A stretch of 64,000 nucleotides of DNA. It comes from Holophagaceae bacterium (GTDB lineage Bacteria; Acidobacteriota; Holophagae; Holophagales; Holophagaceae). Location of the stretch: assembly GCA_009783055.1 (NCBI GenBank), contig WRHW01000001.1, forward strand, positions 1-64,000, in the 5' to 3' direction. Under the pieces are notes generated by a model. The model searched no databases. It saw only the letters and a list, made by a program, of their open reading frames with translations, and had not been told where the DNA came from. Positions within the stretch are counted from its first letter, which is position 1. Each line of letters starts with the position of its first letter. Of this stretch, positions 42,382 to 53,974 are shown piece by piece. The translations under genes and the position numbers were made by a program.

Positions 42382-44472
42382 ATGACTTTGAGACTTCGCT
42401 CTCTCCTTACGGCCACCAGCATGGCTCTTGTATCGGGTGCTTTGTTTTCTGATGAAGGGATGTGGACGTTTGACAACCTACCCCTCAAGAAGATGATGGA
42501 AAAATATGGCTTTGCGCCTGATAAGCAGTGGCTCGAACACGCCCAGCTTGCGGCTGTAAATTTTGGCGGTGGTTCGGCTTCTTTTATTAGTAGCAATGGC
42601 CTCGTTATCACCAACCACCACGTTGGACGTGGTTCGCTACAACGTCTCTCTACTAGTGAAAATAATTACATCAGGGACGGCTTCATTGCCCGCACTATGG
42701 CTGATGAAATTAAGGTGCCTAACCTGACCATCCGCACGGTTGTGCAAATGGAAAACGTTACCGAAAAGGTAAATGCCGCCGTAAAGCCCGGTATGAAGCC
42801 TGAAGAGGCGGCCCAGGCCAGAAGCCAGGCCCTCGCTAGCATTGCCCAGGAATTGGGCGACAAAACGCGCCTAGAGCCACGCCAAGTAACGCTTTATAGC
42901 GGTGGTGAATATTGGGTATACCTCAACAAAGTGCATACAGATGTACGCCTGGTGGCGGCACCTGAAACCGAAGTTGGCGGATTTGGTGGCGATCCAGATA
43001 ATTTTACCTATCCGCGCCATGACCTAGATTTCTGCATGTTTAGGGTCTATGAAAATGACAAACCATATCAGCCATCACACTTCCTAAGAATGCCCTCAAC
43101 CCCCCTAAAAAATGGAGATTTGACCTTTGTCATAGGCAACCCTGGGCGAACTCAGAGGCAATTAACCTATGCCCAGATGATGTTTAACCGCGACTATTCG
43201 GCCCCAACATCCATCGCAAACCTTAAAGAACGCAGAGAAGGCATCCTTGCAAACGTGGCCGCCGCAAAAACTGAAGACGAACGTCGCACAGCCATGGCTC
43301 CTATTTTTGGAGTAGAGAATAGCCTAAAGGCACAATCCGGCTACTACCGCGGACTCATTGACGTTGCCGCCATGGGCCGCATCAAGGCCGCCGAGGATGA
43401 ACTCAGAGCCAAGATAGCCGCAGATCCGCAGTTAAAGGCTGACGCAGGAAACAGCCATGCAAGGATAGAAGATGCTGTTAAACTGCAGATTTCTGTGTTT
43501 AAGGAACAACAAGTACCGGGCTTTTTTACTGCCGCCGGTGACTTGTCTGTCCGGTTGATGTCGATAATGAATATTGTCAATCGCCCTGCTACTGCTCAGG
43601 CCACCCCTGCTGGTGGACGTGGCGGAAACCAAGTAGCCCGTGATAGAGAACTTGCAGTTGGCAATTTTGCCTTCGACAAGGCCATAGAAACGCGCAACCT
43701 CACTGTAGCTTTGGAAAAATCAGTTAAGGAATTAGGGCCTAACCATAAATTTGTCAAGTCTGTTTTGGGCAATAGATCTGCTGAGGCTGTAGCCAAGGCC
43801 GCCGTTGACGGCACTCAGCTTGCGTCTGCAGATGCCAGAAAGGCACTGTTGGATGGTGGCAAGGTAGCTGTGGATGCCTCTAAAGATTCGTTGCTCGCCC
43901 TGCTAAAGCAAGTAATTGAGCTACAGGCAAACGTAACAAAAGTAAATGGCCAAGCTCAGGCGATCATTAGCGATCATTCGCTACGCATTGCAAAAGCTCG
44001 CTTTGCGGTATATGGCAAGGAAATGTATCCAGACGCAACCGGCACCCTGCGCCTCACTTATGGCGCGGTGCAAACCTATGAGGGCAATGGCACGAAGATG
44101 CAACCCTTCACCACATTCTATGGCCTCTACGACAGGCACATCGGCTGGGGCGGCAACGAGGCCAAGGCCGAAAATGGCTCTTGGACGCTACCTCAGAGGT
44201 GGCTGGATGCCAAAGATAAAATTAACCTCACTACTCCGCTCAACTTTGTCCACGATGTTGATACCATTGGCGGTAACAGCGGTAGCCCAGTGCTAAACGT
44301 CAAGGGCGAAATAGTTGGCCTGCTCTTCGATGGCACATACGAGAGTCTGCCAAATAACTATTTCTATGACGTAAAATACAATCGCTCCGTAAGCGTTGAT
44401 ATGAGGGCAGTGCTGGAATCCCTCTGGTCTGTCTATGATGCCGCCCACCTCATCAGGCAGATGGGGAACTAA
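42382..44472 (+). CDS. S46 family dipeptidyl-peptidase (copy B)
   Basis: A 696-residue secreted S46 peptidase with signal peptide MTLRLRSLLTATSMALVSGALF, then DEGMWTFDNLPL. Triad regions: ITNHHVGRG, GDPDNFTYPRHDLDF and GGNSGSPVLN. The specificity loop reads GLLFDGTYE, with Gly as in DPP7-like enzymes that prefer hydrophobic P1 residues. An Ala/Gly/Pro-rich insertion (TAQATPAGGRGG) sits mid-chain. TTTGGAGG lies before the ATG. It is about as long as copies A and C but clearly diverged. Confidence 0.92.
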   Translation: MTLRLRSLLTATSMALVSGALFSDEGMWTFDNLPLKKMMEKYGFAPDKQWLEHAQLAAVNFGGGSASFISSNGLVITNHHVGRGSLQRLSTSENNYIRDGFIARTMADEIKVPNLTIRTVVQMENVTEKVNAAVKPGMKPEEAAQARSQALASIAQELGDKTRLEPRQVTLYSGGEYWVYLNKVHTDVRLVAAPETEVGGFGGDPDNFTYPRHDLDFCMFRVYENDKPYQPSHFLRMPSTPLKNGDLTFVIGNPGRTQRQLTYAQMMFNRDYSAPTSIANLKERREGILANVAAAKTEDERRTAMAPIFGVENSLKAQSGYYRGLIDVAAMGRIKAAEDELRAKIAADPQLKADAGNSHARIEDAVKLQISVFKEQQVPGFFTAAGDLSVRLMSIMNIVNRPATAQATPAGGRGGNQVARDRELAVGNFAFDKAIETRNLTVALEKSVKELGPNHKFVKSVLGNRSAEAVAKAAVDGTQLASADARKALLDGGKVAVDASKDSLLALLKQVIELQANVTKVNGQAQAIISDHSLRIAKARFAVYGKEMYPDATGTLRLTYGAVQTYEGNGTKMQPFTTFYGLYDRHIGWGGNEAKAENGSWTLPQRWLDAKDKINLTTPLNFVHDVDTIGGNSGSPVLNVKGEIVGLLFDGTYESLPNNYFYDVKYNRSVSVDMRAVLESLWSVYDAAHLIRQMGN

Positions 44473-44570
44473 AGCTATCGTCGACAACGGGCATTTTGGG
44501 TTTGTGCCAAGCTACCGAAAAAGAGCGTGGCTTGGCACAAAAACCAGCAACTGAAGTTAGGGAGCCATTA

Positions 44571-45565
44571 GTGCAGACAGCGCAAACACTGTTTGATGAA
44601 GATTGTCGCCTTGAGCAGTACAGTGGAAAGTCCATCCATGAAGAATTTGCTCAAGATTCAGAAATAGTTTTTTTACATGGCGATTCTATTGATAGTTTGG
44701 GAGAGTGCCCACCCAATTTTGCAAAACTGATTATTACTTCGCCACCCTACAACGTGGGTAAAGAATATGAAACCCAAACCAACCTGAAAAATTACTTAAA
44801 AGCCCTTGAGCCAATGCTAGACGAGCTCGTCCGGGTATTAGCTCCTGACGGCTCGCTTTGCTGGCAAGTTGGAAACTATGTAGAAAACAAAGAAGTATTC
44901 CCCCTGGACTTCTACTTTTACCCGCTTTTCAAAGAGCGCGGCCTAAAGCTCCGCAATCGCATTATCTGGACATTTGAGCACGGCCTACATTGTTCAACAC
45001 GTTTTTCGGGACGCTATGAAACCCTGCTGTGGTTTACAAAGGGAGATAGCTACGTTTTCAACCTTGATCCCGTCCGAGTACCCTCAAAATATCCCGGCAA
45101 GACCCATTTTAAGCCCGGACCCAAGTATGGGTTGCCGTCTGGCAATCCTCTCGGAAAAACCCCGGCGACATTTGGAAGCTGATGTTAAACGAGTGGGAAA
45201 CAGGGCTATGGAACATCCCCAACGTAAAGGCCAACCATCCAGAAAAAACTTTGCATCCTTGCCAATTTCCTATCGAACTTGTAGAACGCTGTATTCTGGC
45301 CTTTACCGAGCCAGGCGACTGGGTAATAGACCCTTTCAGCGGGGTCGGCTCTGCCATGCTTGCGGCCGTTAAGCTGGGTCGCCGGGCATTGGGGTGCGAA
45401 AGGGAAGACGAATACATCGCAGAAGCTAAAAAACGTATGGGGTTGCTGTTTTCAGGTAGCCTGCCTTACCGTCCTTTGGGCAAGCCCGTCCATCAACCAA
45501 CGGGACGTGAAAAGGTATCCCAGATCCCAGCGTTATGGCTCGGACAACAGGAGGGACTACAATGA
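44571..45565 (+). pseudogene. beta-class DNA methyltransferase, single-base frameshift
   Basis: A GTG at 44571 follows AGGGAG. Frame 1 carries motif IV ITSPPYNVGKEYE and runs to SGNPLGKTPATFGS then stop at 45182. The shifted frame continues GDIWKLMLNEWETGLWNIPN then VKANHPEKTLHP, with motif I VIDPFSGVGSAMLAAV near the end. Changing AAAAACCCC near 45158 by one A joins them as GKNPGDIW, the family reading. Order IV then I marks a beta-class enzyme. It is inactive unless frameshifting rescues it; a sequencing error is possible. No nuclease partner is adjacent: it lies between S46 copies B and C. Confidence 0.78.
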
Positions 45566-45654
45566 AAATAGTAGGTAAATATTCATTTTTTTCAATATTC
45601 TGACAGGTTTTGAAAAAGGCTCAAATAACAAACTACAAATCATTTGGAGAACCT

Positions 45655-47718
45655 ATGCGTCTACCCTTAACCGCACTGCTACTTGCCTCCCTTGCTACCC
45701 CTGCCCTGCGATCCGACGAGGGCATGTGGACTTTTAGTAGCATCCCCGTAGCAAAACTGATGGAAAAATATGGCTGGGCACCAGACCAGGCATGGCTGGA
45801 TCACGTCAGGATGTCTTCCCTGCGTTTCCCCGGAGGTTCTGGCTCTTTTGTGAGCAAGGATGGTTTGGTGTTGACAAACCACCATGTAGGCCACAATTTT
45901 ATTCAGGCAGTAAGCAAGGATGCCGACTTTGTCAAGGATGGCTTTGTCGCTAATACAAGGGAGCAGGAAGTCAAGGTTCCTGGCCTCACTCTGATGATGT
46001 TACAGGAAACTGTGAATGTCACTGAGGAGGTTGAAAAGGCTGTACCTCAGGGGGCAAATGAAAAGGTGGCAACTGAGGCACGTGTAGCCGCTATTTCGCG
46101 TGCCCAGAAAGCCATGTCAGAAAAAACTGGCCTTCAATGCGAAACGGTATCCCTGTTTCAGGGTGGCGAGTTTTGGATTTATTGCTACAAGACCTTCAAG
46201 GATGTTCGCTTGGTGGCCTGCCCTGAATATCAAGTGGCGGCCTTTGGCAAAGATGACGACAATTTTACGTGGCCACGACATGACCTGGACTTTTCTTTAT
46301 TCAGGGTATATGAAGATGACAAGCCTTATAATCCACAACACTATCTGACTTGGAGCAAGGTTGGTACCAAAAATGGCGACCTAACCTTTGTTACGGGGCA
46401 TCCGGGGTCGACTTCGCGCCTTTACACTGTGGCTCAGATGGAAAACGACAGGGATGTTATTTATCCTCCGATTTTGAGAAATCTGCAGACCAATGTAGAG
46501 CGTCTGCGTGAAGTAGCCCGTAGCGGAGAAGAAGGCGAACGACAGGTTTCTGCACAGTTGATGGGGATGGAAAATAGCTTGAAGGCTCTGACAGGCTATC
46601 ACAAGGGTTTGCTTGACGTTGAGCAGATGGCGAGGGTTAGGGCCACAGAAGAAGAACTCATCGCCAAAGTAAAGGCTAACCCAAACCTGAATGCTCTGGC
46701 AGGCGATAGCTGGGATAAGATTGCAAACGCTATGAAAGACTACGCCAGATATACTAAAGAAAATCAACTCATCAATCTGGGTTCAAGCCCATCACTATTT
46801 TTGGCTGTAAACTATATTCGCTCCCTCAAAGAGGCAGATAGACCTGAAGACGATAGATTACAAGGCTATAAGACAGAAAGTGAGTTGACGCGAATTAGTG
46901 AGTCCTTTGAAAACGGCCCAACCAACGACCCATCAAATGATATTCCGACTTTTACAAACTATCTAAACGCCGCCCAAAAGGCGTTAGGCGATGATCATCC
47001 ATATCTCTCCCCCATATTGAATGGCAACTCGCCGGAAGATGCCGCCAAAAATGCACTGAGTAACACTACATTCAATGATGGCAACTTTAGAAAAAAACTC
47101 ATTGAAGGCGGCCTCAAAGCCATAGCGGCCACAAAAGACCCGTTGGTGGCATTGGCTTATAAGATCGAGCCATATATGACAGACTTCCGCCGGATGGGAG
47201 ATAGCTTTAGGTCGGTAGTAACTGACCACCAAGCCCGAATCGCAAAGGCTAGGTTTGAAGTATATGGCCATGACGTATATCCGGACGCTACTTTTACTCT
47301 TCGCCTCTCTTATGGCACCGTTGAGACTTTCCCCATGGAAGGAACTCTGGCTCAGCCATATACGACCTTTTATGGTATGTATGACCGGGCTGAATCCTGG
47401 GGCCCTGAGGCTAGATGGGCATCATGGAGCCTTCCTGAGCGTTGGGATAAGGCTAGAAACACTATCAATCTAAAGACACCATATAACTTCATCACCAATA
47501 ACGACATAACGGGTGGTAACAGCGGTAGCCCATTGGTGGATAAAAATGCTGAGCTGGTTGGTTTGGCGTTTGATGGCAACATACACAGCCTGGCTGGAAC
47601 TTATTACTTTGATCCTAAGATGAACCGCACTATTGCCGTGGATTGCCGTAGCATCGTTGAAGCCCTCAATACTGTTATGGGTGGCAAGCATTTAGTTGAG
47701 GAGATATTAGGCAGGTGA
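45655..47718 (+). CDS. S46 family dipeptidyl-peptidase (copy C)
   Basis: A 687-residue secreted S46 peptidase. Start 45655 after TTGGAGA gives signal peptide MRLPLTALLLASLATPALRS and then DEGMWTFSSIP. Triad regions: LTNHHVGHN, DDDNFTWPRHDLDF and GGNSGSPLVD. The specificity loop is GLAFDGN (Gly). The frame opens 15 codons earlier without a ribosome site. It follows the broken methylase by 89 nt and ends at the palindrome 47739. Probably acts with copies A and B on imported protein fragments. Confidence 0.92.
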   Translation: MRLPLTALLLASLATPALRSDEGMWTFSSIPVAKLMEKYGWAPDQAWLDHVRMSSLRFPGGSGSFVSKDGLVLTNHHVGHNFIQAVSKDADFVKDGFVANTREQEVKVPGLTLMMLQETVNVTEEVEKAVPQGANEKVATEARVAAISRAQKAMSEKTGLQCETVSLFQGGEFWIYCYKTFKDVRLVACPEYQVAAFGKDDDNFTWPRHDLDFSLFRVYEDDKPYNPQHYLTWSKVGTKNGDLTFVTGHPGSTSRLYTVAQMENDRDVIYPPILRNLQTNVERLREVARSGEEGERQVSAQLMGMENSLKALTGYHKGLLDVEQMARVRATEEELIAKVKANPNLNALAGDSWDKIANAMKDYARYTKENQLINLGSSPSLFLAVNYIRSLKEADRPEDDRLQGYKTESELTRISESFENGPTNDPSNDIPTFTNYLNAAQKALGDDHPYLSPILNGNSPEDAAKNALSNTTFNDGNFRKKLIEGGLKAIAATKDPLVALAYKIEPYMTDFRRMGDSFRSVVTDHQARIAKARFEVYGHDVYPDATFTLRLSYGTVETFPMEGTLAQPYTTFYGMYDRAESWGPEARWASWSLPERWDKARNTINLKTPYNFITNNDITGGNSGSPLVDKNAELVGLAFDGNIHSLAGTYYFDPKMNRTIAVDCRSIVEALNTVMGGKHLVEEILGR

Positions 47719-48860: not shown

Positions 48861-49136
48861 CTATAAGCGATAGACTACATCGCCACTTATCATTGCTTGG
48901 CACGCTAACCTTTGTTTGGGGTTGGCTCTGAGGATGCGCAGAATCCTTGATTCTGCCTCGCTTGGAAGGGAGAGGTTTTCAATACCGGCTACAATCTCAA
49001 CCAAGCATCTCCCACAGCGTCCATGCCCTCTGCATGAATGCTTGTCCTGTGATGATGGGATTGACGTGCCGGCGACCAATGGCAGACCGGCTTCTAATTC
49101 AACGCTTTCTGTTTGGTCAACCAAGGTAACTTTCAT
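48861..49136 (-). CDS. 2Fe-2S ferredoxin
   Basis: A 91-residue plant/vertebrate-type ferredoxin. Cluster cysteines: SCRGHGRCGRC (C-x5-C-x2-C) and a fourth in RLACQ. This is the spacing of Isc-type and metabolite-oxidoreductase ferredoxins. Start 49136 is set by GGAG 6 nt upstream. It is divergent from the dsrC operon, sharing a 193-nt control region, so it may supply electrons to that sulfur-handling module (inference). Confidence 0.82.
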   Translation of the reverse strand: MKVTLVDQTESVELEAGLPLVAGTSIPSSQDKHSCRGHGRCGRCLVEIVAGIENLSLPSEAESRILRILRANPKQRLACQAMISGDVVYRL

Positions 49137-49329
49137 TTTGTACTCCATCGCTTGCAAAGCTAAAATCACGGGAAATGAAAAAAATATTTAGCGCGATCAA
49201 TCCATTTTATGCCCATAAAGATTGTTAGGCAGACATAAAATTTTGACATATCTCCTTGCTTGGGAAAACATAGTATTAGGCGTACGAGTTTGTGCGAAGA
49301 TGCAAAAAGTAATTTTTTAGGAGAAAGTG

Positions 49330-49650
49330 ATGGCAACAATAGATTTTAACGGTGCTACGGTAGAACTCAACGAGGAAGGTTTTCTTGTCGACCCCAATAT
49401 CTGGAATGAAGAGTTGGCAAAAGTACTGGCAAAGCATGAGGAGGGGCTAGATGAGCTAACAGAGGAACACTGGGCTGTTATTAAGTTTATCCGATCTTAT
49501 TATGAAGAAAAACAGTCGGCTCCTATGGTCCGCGCCGTTTGCAAGGGGTCTGGGATTCGTCTACAACAGGTGTATGATTTGTTTCCCAGCGGGCCTGCAA
49601 AAGGTGCATGTAAATTAGCTGGTCTGCCCAAACCAGACGGATGTGTTTAG
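49330..49650 (+). CDS. dsrC: DsrC/TusE-family sulfur-carrier protein
   Basis: A 106-residue sulfur carrier. ATIDFNGATVELNEEGFLVD opens the family fold, and LTEEHWAVIKFIRSYYEE and LFPSGPAKGACKLAGLPKP are canonical. Both C-terminal redox cysteines are present, eleven residues apart, the last being penultimate (GCV). That makes it a true DsrC rather than a one-Cys TusE homologue: it can form a trisulfide or intramolecular disulfide. AGGAG lies before ATG 49330. It heads an operon with DsrM-like, DsrK-like and cysteine desulfurase genes. Confidence 0.9.
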   Translation: MATIDFNGATVELNEEGFLVDPNIWNEELAKVLAKHEEGLDELTEEHWAVIKFIRSYYEEKQSAPMVRAVCKGSGIRLQQVYDLFPSGPAKGACKLAGLPKPDGCV

Positions 49651-49658
49651 GGGAACGA

Positions 49659-50312
49659 ATGACTTTTTTTGATGGTTTCTTGTATGGTGCCCTATTGGTG
49701 GCAATCATGTGGGCTGGCTACGCACTTGTGTATATTTGGTTTCGCACTCGGAATTTTGGCAAGCGAGAACTTTTTTCCGCTCCTGCAGGTAGTCAGGTTG
49801 GTGGTGCCATTTATGCCTTTACTTGGGCGATGCTACCTTGGGCAAAGGAGAGCATCCGAGGCAATTTGATAAGCTATGCAATGGGCATTGCATACCATGT
49901 CGGCATTTTTACCGCTATTGCCCTCTTGGTAATATACATTTTCCCCGCCCTTCACGATCTGACAGCAATATTTCTTTACTACATCATTCCATTTGCTCTC
50001 GCCTTCGGCGTTATTGGTGGCATTTCGCTATTAATTAAACGTATGCTAAACCCCATACTACGAGCCATTTCAAGCCCAGACGATTATTTTTCAAACACCT
50101 CTGCAACGCTTTTTGTGGGGCTTGCTCTCGCAACGCTTCTGTTGTCTCGAATTTGGATAACACGATTATGGTTTATTTCCGCCATAGTTCTTTTTATCTA
50201 TATTCCATTTAGCAAAATACGGCACTGCCTTTTCTTTTTTATTACAAGGTACCACTTTGGCGCGTTCTTTGGTCGCCGGGGATGTATGCCACCTTCTAAA
50301 ACAAAGGTGTAA
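49659..50312 (+). CDS. DsrM-like membrane cytochrome b subunit
   Basis: A 217-residue protein with five to six hydrophobic segments. Histidines suited to heme b ligation occur in AYHVGIF and in SKIRHCLFFFITRYHFGAFF, as in the NarI/DsrM family. It is shorter than typical DsrM. It would oxidise menaquinol and pass electrons to the DsrK-like partner, whose ATG follows after 1 nt. GGGGAA precedes start 49659, 8 nt after the dsrC stop. Confidence 0.7.
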   Translation: MTFFDGFLYGALLVAIMWAGYALVYIWFRTRNFGKRELFSAPAGSQVGGAIYAFTWAMLPWAKESIRGNLISYAMGIAYHVGIFTAIALLVIYIFPALHDLTAIFLYYIIPFALAFGVIGGISLLIKRMLNPILRAISSPDDYFSNTSATLFVGLALATLLLSRIWITRLWFISAIVLFIYIPFSKIRHCLFFFITRYHFGAFFGRRGCMPPSKTKV

Positions 50313-50313
50313 G

Positions 50314-51660
50314 ATGCCTGAAATAGATGAGTTGGAAAATAGAATCAACGCCCTGACTGAGGCAGACATTGAATCTGGCCTGGCCTTCTTTAGGTCAAAG
50401 TTAAAGGAAGCAGAAGCTAGCTACCTCAACTCATGTGTGCGCTGTGGGCTTTGCGCTAATAGTTGCCACTACTATCGCGCTACCCCAGAATTGGAAAACG
50501 TGCCTGTCCGCAAGCTGGGCTACATTGTGGCTACCTTTAAGGCCAGTTTTACATCCCTTGGACGCATTGCCCCTGGCCTAGTCAACGCAAAGCCCTTTAC
50601 CCGTGAAATAATACGATGTTGGATAGATTCAGTCTTTGGACGGTGTTCGCTTTGTGGTAGATGCTCAATTAATTGCACTATCGGTATTCCGTTGCCAAGT
50701 TTATTTCGGGCGGCCAGAGCCACTCTAGCTTCAATGGACTTGGTGCCTCTCGACCTACAAGCAACAGTAAACAACAGCCTAAAGTACGGCAATAACATGG
50801 CAATAGAGCAGGAGGAATGGATAGAGACAGTTGAATGGATTGAGGAGGAGCTACAGGCTGAGGTAGAAGACCAAAATGCAAAACTTCCCTTGGATAAAAT
50901 CGGGGCTAAATATCTCTTCACCGTAAACCCTCGCGAGGCAAAGTTTTTTCCACTATCCCTCCAAGCGAGTGCCAAGGTGTTTTGGGCGGCAAAAGAAAAT
51001 TGGACTATGGCAAAAGATGTAGGCTGGGACCTCACAAACTACGGCCTCTTTAATTGCAACGATGATCAGGCAGGAACTATTTTTAAGAATATGGCCACTG
51101 CAATGGATCGGTTGAAGTGTGAAACATTAGTAATTGGTGAATGCGGACATGGCTACCAGAGTGCCCGATGGATGGGGCCAGAATGGCTCAAGGCACACTT
51201 TCCATACCCTGTTGTAAGTTTTTTAGAGGTGATGGACGAATATTTGGAACAGGACAAAATCAAAGTAGATAAAACAAAAAACCAACAAATAGTAACTTTG
51301 CATGACCCTTGTAATTTGGTTCGGCATGGTGGAATTGTGGAACCACAAAGGAGAGTGTTACGGCAATCAGTAGAACATTTTGTAGAAATGTCACCCTATG
51401 GCCATGAAAATTTCTGTTGTGGAGGCGGAGGCGGACAATTGTCAATGAGCAAGTATACAGCCCGCAGAATGAATGCTGGTGGGGTTAAAGCTCGTCAAAT
51501 TGCCGATACTATGGCCAAAATAGTCGCCACACCATGTCACAACTGCGTTGACCAGCTTATGGAACTTAATAAAGAATATTCACTCAAAATCCAAATCAAG
51601 ACCGTCGCAGAGCTTGTTGCAAACGCACTTGTATTAACATCCCGAAAGGATAAGACATGA
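50314..51660 (+). CDS. DsrK/HdrD-like iron-sulfur oxidoreductase
   Basis: A 448-residue protein. Two 4Fe-4S motifs (CVRCGLCANSC near 43-53; CSLCGRCSINC near 112-122) are followed by a helical linker and two cysteine-rich CCG-type domains (ECGHGYQSARW; HDPCNLVRHGG; NFCCGGGGGQLS; TPCHNCVDQ). That is the DsrK/HdrD architecture, which reduces heterodisulfides or DsrC trisulfide at a noncubane cluster. With DsrM-like and DsrC upstream it should form a quinol:DsrC oxidoreductase. The next gene's ATG overlaps its TGA. Confidence 0.82.
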   Translation: MPEIDELENRINALTEADIESGLAFFRSKLKEAEASYLNSCVRCGLCANSCHYYRATPELENVPVRKLGYIVATFKASFTSLGRIAPGLVNAKPFTREIIRCWIDSVFGRCSLCGRCSINCTIGIPLPSLFRAARATLASMDLVPLDLQATVNNSLKYGNNMAIEQEEWIETVEWIEEELQAEVEDQNAKLPLDKIGAKYLFTVNPREAKFFPLSLQASAKVFWAAKENWTMAKDVGWDLTNYGLFNCNDDQAGTIFKNMATAMDRLKCETLVIGECGHGYQSARWMGPEWLKAHFPYPVVSFLEVMDEYLEQDKIKVDKTKNQQIVTLHDPCNLVRHGGIVEPQRRVLRQSVEHFVEMSPYGHENFCCGGGGGQLSMSKYTARRMNAGGVKARQIADTMAKIVATPCHNCVDQLMELNKEYSLKIQIKTVAELVANALVLTSRKDKT

Positions 51661-52862
51661 CATACCTAAATCTTCCCATCCCACCTGAAGTCAAGATGAT
51701 ATACCTAGACAATGGGGCAACATCTTTTCCCAAACCGCAGGAAGTCTATGAAAAAATGGATCGTTTTTATCGAAGTGCAGGTGTAAACCCTGGCAGAAGT
51801 GGCTTTGACCTCTGTCTTGAAGCTGGTGGGCTTGTAGATGAGACACGCAAGCTACTCTGCGATTTCTTTGGTGGAACAGATCCAAACAGGCTAACCTTCA
51901 GTTACAACAGTACCGACTCGCTTAATTTGGCAATTTGGGGAACTGTCAATCCAGGAGATCACGTTGTCACCACCCACCTTGAACACAACGCCACGCTACG
52001 CCCCATTTGGAAATTAGAACAAATGGGCTGTCCAGTTGATTGGGTCGACTTCGATAGATCAGGCTATGTTGACCCACAAGAGATAATCAAGCGACTCCGC
52101 AAGGACACAAAGGCTGTGGTTATGAATCATGCCTCGAATGTAATCGGCACAGTGCAGGATGTTGCTACTGTATGCCGCGAATGTAGAGATAGGGGCATTA
52201 CCTCCATCCTAGACGTTAGCCAGAGCGCAGGTATGGTACCAGTAAAAATGGATGACATCTACGCTGATATTATTTGCTTTACTGGCCATAAGAGCCTGAT
52301 GGGGCCAATGGGCATTGGTGGAATGTATTCGAGAGAGGGCGTTGAAATAAGGCATACCCGCGCTGGTGGAACAGGCGTGAAGAGCATACAGCGCAATCAC
52401 TTAGATGAATATCCCTACCGCATGGAATATGGCACACCTAACTTGCCAGGGATCGCTGGCCTGAATGCAGGGATAAAATGGGTCAACAAATATGGTGTCA
52501 AGGCTATACACCAACATGAGATGGCACTTTGGAAAATATTGCGGAATGGCATAGAAAATCTTGAAGGTGTAACCTTGTACTGCGCTAAAGACGCGCCTGG
52601 TAAAGAGCGTATTAGTGTACTTTCATTCAATATAGAAGGTTTGGAAGCGGCAAATACAGGCACCATGCTGGACGTGGACTATGACATTGCCTGTCGAACT
52701 GGACTGCATTGCACCCCAATGGTGCATGAACACTTAGGGACAGACAAAATCCAAGGTGCCGCAAGATTTGGCATTGGGGCATTTAATAACGAAGAACAAA
52801 TACAGACAGCTGTGAGAGCAGTAACAGAAATTGCCGAAGCACATTTGAAGAGGCAGAAGTGA
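51657..52862 (+). CDS. cysteine desulfurase (class V aminotransferase fold)
   Basis: A 401-residue PLP enzyme. IYLDNGATSFPKPQEV opens the fold, FTGHKSLMGPMG holds the PLP lysine, and CRTGLHCTPMVHEHLG the catalytic Cys, the form seen in the EF2568-type desulfurase family. It would release cysteine sulfur as persulfide, a plausible sulfur source for the adjacent DsrC. The ATG overlaps the DsrK-like stop; an internal ATG at 51693 is an alternative start. Confidence 0.85.
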   Translation: MTYLNLPIPPEVKMIYLDNGATSFPKPQEVYEKMDRFYRSAGVNPGRSGFDLCLEAGGLVDETRKLLCDFFGGTDPNRLTFSYNSTDSLNLAIWGTVNPGDHVVTTHLEHNATLRPIWKLEQMGCPVDWVDFDRSGYVDPQEIIKRLRKDTKAVVMNHASNVIGTVQDVATVCRECRDRGITSILDVSQSAGMVPVKMDDIYADIICFTGHKSLMGPMGIGGMYSREGVEIRHTRAGGTGVKSIQRNHLDEYPYRMEYGTPNLPGIAGLNAGIKWVNKYGVKAIHQHEMALWKILRNGIENLEGVTLYCAKDAPGKERISVLSFNIEGLEAANTGTMLDVDYDIACRTGLHCTPMVHEHLGTDKIQGAARFGIGAFNNEEQIQTAVRAVTEIAEAHLKRQK

Positions 52863-52885: not shown

Positions 52886-52952
52886 TAATACCATTTTCTA
52901 TTGATAATATGCTAAATATTTGTTATCCTCTGATGATATTGGAGGGCATCAG

Positions 52953-53974
52953 ATGGCAAGGGGCAAACCTGAATTTTTGGACGAGCTTGCAGAGCGTGCG
53001 GAGGCTGACCTAAAGACAGTGGACCGCCACCGCGTGGCCTTCAAGCTGAATGCCATAGTGGCAGTCACGAGGCACACGGCAGAGAAAGTGGCGGACATAA
53101 TAAGAGTGGCTCCGCAGACCATCTGGCGTTGGGCCAAGGCATACAAAGAGGAAGGCTTGGGCGGCCTTCAGCCCAAGCCAAAAAGGCCAAAGCCTTCAAA
53201 GCTCACAAAAGAGCAGAAGGGGCAGGCATTGAAGTGGCTGGACGAAGCGAAGACGCCTGACGGCAGGCATGCCCATTGGACGCTAGAGAAGCTACGCCAG
53301 GCATTTATTGACGAGTTCAATGTCGAGCTAGGCACGACAACAATCTGGACTTGGTTACGCAAAGAGGGCAGGAAGCTGAAAGTTCCAAGGCCCAAGCACT
53401 ACAAAGCGGACGTAGTGGCGCAGGAGGAGTTCAAAAAAAAACTGCCGAGATCGCGAAAAACAACCCGGATGCCATAGTTTGTTTCTTCGACGAAGGACGC
53501 TTCGGCAACCAGCCATATTTAGGCAAATTCTGGGCAACGAAGGGCGTGCGGCCCACGGTCAAAGTAAAGATAGGCTACGAGAACTTCTACGCCTATAGTG
53601 CGGTGTGTCCCTCTACTGGCAAGAACTTCACGCTCTTCCTGCCGTATGTAAACACCGCCATGATGAACATGTTCCTGGAGGGGCTTGGGGTATGGCTGGA
53701 AGGCCGCCGTTGCATCCTGATAATGGACCAGGCAGGATGGCACACGTCAAAGGAGCTGAAAGTGCCGCCAAACATAGAGATAGTATACCTGCCGGCATAC
53801 TCGCCGGAACTGAATCCCGTGGAGCGGCTGTGGGACTGGCTGAAGCGGAACACCATACGCAACCGCTTTTTTGAGACGCTCGAAGAGGTCATGGATGCTG
53901 TAGAAGAGCAGTTGAGGGAAGCCACCGCAGGCATCCTCAAGAGCTTGTGCGCCTGCAACTATTTATCACATTAG
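52953..53974 (+). CDS. IS630 transposase (two frames joined by -1 frameshift)
   Basis: The first frame starts at 52953 after GGAGGG and encodes the helix-turn-helix region (VADIIRVAPQTIWRWAKAYK; TTTIWTWLRKEGRKLKVPR), stopping at 53477. The second frame carries the DDE domain: FFDEGRFGNQPYLGKFW, IMDQAGWHTS and YSPELNPVERLWDWLKR. Joining requires a one-base backward slip on an A9 run (53433-53441), the slippery sequence typical of programmed frameshifting; it gives EEFKKKTAEIAKNN. The acidic triad is intact. The product is about 340 residues. Confidence 0.88.
53433..53441 (+). promoter_or_regulatory. A9 frameshift site in transposase
   Basis: Nine A residues read AAA AAA AAA in frame 1. A -1 slip opens the DDE-domain frame. 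It probably sets a low transposase level. Confidence 0.65.

Follow-up and report, generated by a model that had tools for sequence, protein, structure and literature searches.

What might a bacterium do with the sulfur carrier DsrC and a DsrMK-like membrane pair when it has no sulfite reductase? The question is raised by contig WRHW01000001.1 of a Holophagaceae bacterium (GCA_009783055.1), of which positions 1 to 64,000 were analyzed (the window, 64,000 nt in all). Four genes follow one another on the forward strand: dsrC (49330..49650, ATG at 49330), for a two-cysteine DsrC; a dsrM-like gene (49659..50312), for a predicted membrane cytochrome b of the DsrM2/HmcE/TmcC type; a dsrK-like gene (50314..51660), for a predicted cytoplasmic Fe-S protein of the DsrK2/HmcF/TmcB type; and csd (51657..52862), for a predicted EF2568-type (group II/SufS-like) cysteine desulfurase. 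Gaps of 8 nt and 1 nt separate the first three, each of which starts with ATG, and the dsrK-like gene and csd overlap by 4 nt (ATGA), which bears out the compact operon proposed in a preliminary description of the window made from its sequence alone. Across genomes, bacteria without sulfite reductase that keep DsrC and DsrMK almost always have csd adjacent, and this suggests an undescribed route from cysteine sulfur to sulfide that uses electrons from the membrane.

The preliminary description had found no sulfite reductase beside these genes, and the absence extends to the source genome (2.7 Mb, 141 contigs, 95% complete), where we detected neither DsrA nor a single siroheme sulfite/nitrite reductase domain (NIR_SIR). 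The possibility that dsrAB lies elsewhere in the genome was thus not borne out, and DsrA was also missing from all 17 family relatives that carry dsrC. A search of the genome for TusA, which the same description had proposed, found none, and DsrH/TusB was absent as well; TusA was missing from 14 of the 18 dsrC-positive Holophagaceae genomes. DsrJOP, noted before as missing from the window, was found neither there nor at neighboring loci (a genome-wide search for it was not made). A menaquinone/ubiquinone methyltransferase gene is present in the source genome.

The pairing of csd with dsrMK is not peculiar to this genome, which would have spoken against the proposed route, but was seen in dozens. 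When 84,980 species genomes were scanned, 29 loci were found, among them loci in metagenome-assembled genomes (MAGs) whose labels, which can be wrong, include Thermoanaerobaculaceae, Eisenbacteria, Gemmatimonas, Fibrobacter, Latescibacterota, and Krumholzibacteria. The same four-gene order occurred in MAGs labeled Eisenbacteria, Gemmatimonas, Latescibacterota, and Krumholzibacteria. At 56–60% for DsrK, the operons are too divergent to have come from a single contaminating source. At nearly all 29 loci, csd lay 3′ of dsrK on the same strand; the exceptions were one contig that ends inside dsrK and two distant Acidobacteria with csd nearby on the opposite strand. Within Acidobacteriota, DsrK of the window kind was present in 66 of 396 genomes, and the genes at 40 loci were arranged in five ways or more: C-M-K-csd, C-M-K and a convergent csd, csd upstream of C and divergent from it, M-K-C and a convergent csd, and a C-csd pair beside M-K. 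An association that survives repeated rearrangement is good evidence for a functional link, and its recurrence in tens of genomes, far beyond chance, is confirmed.

We then compared this association with the presence of DsrA, which was sought in 61 genomes carrying these DsrK or DsrC genes; the counts that follow are for the 54 Acidobacteriota genomes with a readable neighborhood. The desulfurase gene adjoined dsrMK or dsrC in 40 of the 43 genomes that lack DsrA but in none of the 11 that have it. Counted by genus, the figures were 22 of 24 versus 0 of 9 (p = 1.4e-6), and with the window's family left out they were 17 of 19 versus 0 of 9 (p = 8e-6), p values that are optimistic owing to the relatedness of the genomes. 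In a DsrK tree with an arbitrary root and weak support for some of its inner branches, DsrAB-linked sequences grouped with one csd-linked set (families f42, f63, and f81), the remaining csd-linked sequences, including that of the window, formed a second branch, and the canonical DsrK proteins of the same genomes were set apart. The tree therefore ties csd to two DsrK branches, both in DsrA-less genomes.

Within Holophagaceae, dsrC was present in 18 of 61 genomes, and a survey of the four-gene order found dsrC-dsrM-dsrK-csd kept, in order and strand, wherever the contig was long enough. Of the 18 dsrC-positive genomes, 16 carried an operon-type csd, versus 2 of the 43 dsrC-negative ones (Fisher 1e-10). 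Both exceptions retain traces of the unit: in G032, csd sits at a contig edge with dsrM and dsrK, and in G021, from the same genus as the window, it lies beside a truncated remnant of dsrK at a contig edge (L142:5400-6812), where the operon seems to be decaying or the contig misassembled. A third high-scoring csd without dsrC, in G018, was only 37% identical and of a different kind. As the unit recurs across the family and beyond, we rejected the idea of a horizontally acquired oddity of one genome.

The first and last proteins of the operon matched their expected families. DsrC scored 126 bits with PF04358 (cut-off 24.9) and 111 bits with TIGR03342 (cut-off 53.5), and its nearest solved chains are DsrC proteins (1ji8, 2xsj, and 2v4j). 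Its two cysteines, C94 and the penultimate C105, 11 residues apart, were invariant in the 18 sequences aligned, as was the entire C-terminal arm, GACKLAGLPKPDGCV, across 18 relatives. It is the only DsrC in the source genome, and its score with the TusE equivalog model was 75 bits against a cut-off of 191. The csd product reached 389 bits with TIGR01977 (cut-off 377), and the nearest solved chain is the cysteine desulfurase 5b7s. The pyridoxal phosphate (PLP) lysine, Lys212, and the catalytic Cys352 are conserved, and the motifs HKSLMGP and RTGLHCTPMVH were invariant in 15 relatives; by these features, the protein is an EF2568-type cysteine desulfurase with predicted activity. The first and fourth gene assignments of the preliminary description therefore stand.

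This csd is the only EF2568-type copy in the source genome, where at least one further, distant homologue of the enzyme is encoded; the operon gene is therefore an extra, dedicated copy. Operon-type copies were 73–87% identical to each other, whereas copies of the selenium/molybdenum-hydroxylase type in relatives, although from the same family (TIGR01977), were only 36–39% identical and adjoin TusA, YedE-like transporter, or xanthine-dehydrogenase genes. A housekeeping or selenium-cluster role for the operon csd was rejected on account of the other homologue and the distinctness of this second group. At two other loci in the family, EF2568-type desulfurases adjoin TusA together with a YedE-like transporter (L145:5881-8356) or with xanthine-dehydrogenase-like genes (L146:275-6320), and these are likely of the selenium/molybdenum-hydroxylase kind.

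The membrane pair departs from canonical DsrMK. For the DsrM-like cytochrome, the sole sequence matches were to TmcC (36 bits) and HmcE (35 bits), with no Pfam match and nothing found in the PDB by sequence search. Its AlphaFold model (pLDDT 90) has a NarI-type membrane fold, and the top eight PDB matches were all Escherichia coli NarI (probability 1.00, but E ~2e-3 and TM ~0.5). Only two histidines, H80 and H189, were invariant in alignments of 13, 18, and 24 rows, and a single pair is also found in the DsrM2-type cytochromes linked to DsrAB. DsrM is reported to bind two hemes (PMC10504309); the ligands for two are lacking here, and we infer from the residues that this cytochrome carries one heme b. 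From the places of the histidines in the predicted helices, we would guess that the retained heme is the one on the cytoplasmic side.

The DsrK-like protein has Fer4_8 and CCG Pfam matches, two [4Fe-4S] motifs, and one CCG catalytic motif (C333-X34-CC-X38-C-X2-C), and every cofactor-motif cysteine was invariant in 15 relatives. It scored 275 bits with HmcF, 274 with TmcB, and 216 with DsrK, all under the curated equivalog cut-offs (750, 735, and, for DsrK NF045796, 400 bits). DsrM2K2 of Acidobacteria and the HmcEF/TmcCB proteins of Desulfovibrio-type redox complexes are closest by profile score and tree, where the DsrK2 branches tied to csd and to DsrAB group with each other, away from true DsrK. 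Judged by sequence, then, the pair is of the DsrM2K2/HmcEF-like branch, so that the preliminary assignment to NarI/DsrM-like and DsrK-like proteins holds for fold and motifs but not for canonical DsrMK. The counterparts of the DsrK-like protein are the DsrM2K2 paralogues reported next to dsrAB in Acidobacteria (PMC6018796) and DsrMK without JOP (PMC10504309). The known DsrM2K2, HmcEF, and TmcCB proteins belong to DsrAB genomes or to Hmc/Tmc complexes, whereas the partners here are DsrC and csd.

We consider it reasonably probable that these four proteins form a cysteine-to-sulfide module. The desulfurase would convert L-cysteine to L-alanine, holding the sulfur as a persulfide on Cys352, from which it would go straight to the penultimate cysteine of DsrC. 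The other cysteine of DsrC would then free the sulfur as H2S or trap it as a trisulfide, leaving DsrC oxidized, and two electrons from menaquinol, passing through the membrane cytochrome and the CCG [4Fe-4S] center of the DsrK-like protein, would re-reduce DsrC. The net reaction would be L-cysteine + menaquinol → L-alanine + H2S + menaquinone. This reading builds on the gene set, the catalytic and cluster-binding residues, the conserved association, and a genome in which DsrA, any sulfite reductase, and the Tus relay are missing. The MocR/EhuR-like regulator that lies divergent to the operon in most Holophagae loci and the menaquinone/ubiquinone methyltransferase gene also speak for it. The invariance of both the DsrC cysteines and the DsrK CCG cysteines makes a two-thiol redox cycle possible, and with TusA and DsrH missing and csd adjacent only in DsrA-negative genomes, we favor direct loading of DsrC by the desulfurase. 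There are precedents for the separate steps: E. coli IscS with cysteine persulfurates A. vinosum DsrC at its penultimate cysteine in vitro (PMC3397948), and in sulfite reducers it is established that sulfite respiration ends with the reduction of DsrC-trisulfide by DsrMK(JOP) (PMC10504309). The direct partnership of the present proteins, the reductive direction, menaquinol as donor, and H2S as product are inferred.

Several observations weigh against this reading. Three DsrA-negative genomes from two genera (G089, G124, and G301) have DsrMK without an adjacent csd, and the family's main genus shows a patchy distribution, with the operon in 5 of ~36 genomes. With one histidine pair in place of the two hemes of DsrM, electron transfer across the membrane, and with it energy coupling, would be doubtful. 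By our estimate from formation energies, the reaction of cysteine with H2 to alanine and H2S yields ~-60 kJ/mol (E0′ ~-0.1 V), which with menaquinol (~-0.075 V) leaves almost no driving force at standard state. With so little energy between menaquinol and cysteine, it is uncertain whether energy would be conserved, and the module may serve instead to detoxify or to dispose of electrons. A respiratory role, in which cysteine sulfur delivered on DsrC would be the terminal acceptor for anaerobic quinol oxidation in several phyla without sulfite reductase, is put forward only tentatively, as a doubtful extension of the module.

The same proteins might instead serve biosynthesis, with a TusE-like DsrC carrying csd sulfur to tRNA thiolation, Fe-S clusters, or molybdenum cofactors and DsrMK keeping DsrC reduced. 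In favor of this, TusE, a homologue of DsrC, works in a relay fed by IscS (PMC3397948), and a dedicated desulfurase is present here; in both settings, a cysteine desulfurase would feed a DsrC-family protein. We nevertheless hold this to be unlikely. The TusA-TusBCD-TusE relay of tRNA thiolation needs neither a second cysteine nor a quinone-linked membrane complex, whereas the operon encodes a two-cysteine DsrC with a quinone-linked reductase, TusA and DsrH/TusB homologues are absent, and the TusE score falls far below its cut-off. The module also looks dispensable, given its patchy presence in the family and the relative with a broken dsrK beside csd, and no biosynthetic target gene recurs in the cluster.

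Oxidative use is a still slimmer prospect. DsrMK would then oxidize a DsrC persulfide, derived from cysteine or sulfide, to the trisulfide and pass the electrons to the quinone pool, as has been proposed for sulfur oxidizers; DsrMK is reversible in literature models (PMC10504309; PMC6018796). However, the next enzyme, DsrAB, is absent from every csd-bearing genome tested, so the trisulfide would have no known fate, and the DsrEFH and DsrL partners were not seen.

The upstream side of the operon bears on a further alternative. At 12 of the family loci examined, the gene immediately upstream is divergent and encodes a MocR-type regulator (GntR DNA-binding plus aminotransferase domain, EhuR-like), and most Holophagae loci carry such a gene. 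Regulators of the MocR/EhuR-like class respond to PLP or amino acids. This divergent regulator, a patchy accessory distribution, and occurrence in fermentative or anaerobic lineages would all suit a module that carries out the same reactions in order to clear surplus cysteine or to balance the quinone pool in anaerobiosis, serving as detoxification or an electron sink and not as a supply of sulfide. The neighborhoods, however, show no recurrent cysteine importer or alanine exporter, and we regard this purpose as improbable. The least credible explanation is inherited synteny of genes without a functional link: the CysS, HPPK, and UPF0102 neighbors of one locus group do look like plain synteny, but the csd association outlasts several rearrangements, spans two DsrK branches, and tracks the absence of DsrA.

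The window itself has no MocR homologue anywhere. In that place, across a divergent intergenic region (49170..49329), it has a gene for a small 2Fe-2S ferredoxin on the reverse strand (48861..49169; PF00111, 28.8 bits). The preliminary description had included this ferredoxin, and the protein is there, but no homologue was found at any other locus examined; we rejected it as a component, and it probably stands outside the conserved unit. The route first proposed, with cysteine-derived persulfide loaded on DsrC and reduced by quinol through DsrMK, is partly supported: a DsrC-DsrMK-desulfurase unit without sulfite reductase is upheld, whereas canonical DsrMK and the ferredoxin are not. Directly 3′ of csd, at 52920-53974, are transposase-like open reading frames in two overlapping frames, IS630-like by eye, and the right flank of the operon may therefore be rearranged in this genome. 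Farther upstream, a DNA methyltransferase-like gene split across two overlapping frames (44496-45565) is flanked by S46-type peptidase genes (42382-44472 and 45610-47718).

Other neighbors recur elsewhere. At 12 Acidobacteriota loci (L098, L105, L106, L107, L110, L124, L126, L127, L129, L130, L131, and L133), a gene for cysteinyl-tRNA synthetase (CysS) lies a few kb from dsrC-csd, in many cases with HPPK and UPF0102 genes, which is perhaps plain synteny. An amidohydrolase gene (N-acyl-D-amino-acid deacylase/dihydropyrimidinase type) adjoins csd at L103, L104, L105, and L110. Among these recurrent neighbors, neither the amidohydrolase, CysS, HPPK, nor a TonB receptor made a convincing case as a further component. 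At ten loci of Acidobacteriota that have DsrAB (L117-L123, L125, L128, and L132), the gene before dsrM2 encodes a macrodomain (ADP-ribose-binding) protein, and at most of these a histidine-kinase-like protein follows.

Compared with the DsrC/DsrMK(JOP) arm of sulfite reduction, the proposed cysteine-to-sulfide module shares a two-cysteine DsrC, a DsrK with two [4Fe-4S] motifs and a CCG motif, and a NarI-type cytochrome; it differs in having a desulfurase in a genome without DsrA, a DsrK score far under the curated cut-off, and one histidine pair. We found no description of a DsrC-DsrMK-desulfurase association in the literature covered, which for the most part did not extend to subscription papers and preprints, and no such gene cluster is described in PMC3397948, PMC9774590, PMC10579422, or PMC13232883. 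Cysteine, iscS, and dsrC are discussed for a syntroph in PMC10579422, but with asrAB and without this module. The protein families are all known; their combination, its distribution, and the exclusion with DsrAB appear to be new.

These results matter for how such genes are read. In metagenomes, dsrC and dsrMK are taken as signs of sulfite or sulfate respiration, whereas here they probably mark a different, cysteine-linked process in bacteria without sulfite reductase. Geothrix limicola Red804, a named strain with a public collection record, carries the operon, which makes the idea testable. If true, DsrC would have a second source of sulfur, and orphan DsrC/DsrMK genes would be explained. Organic sulfur would have a further route to sulfide in soils, sediments, and guts, and the module would hint at how the DsrC-DsrMK arm may have functioned independently of DsrAB or in the time before it.

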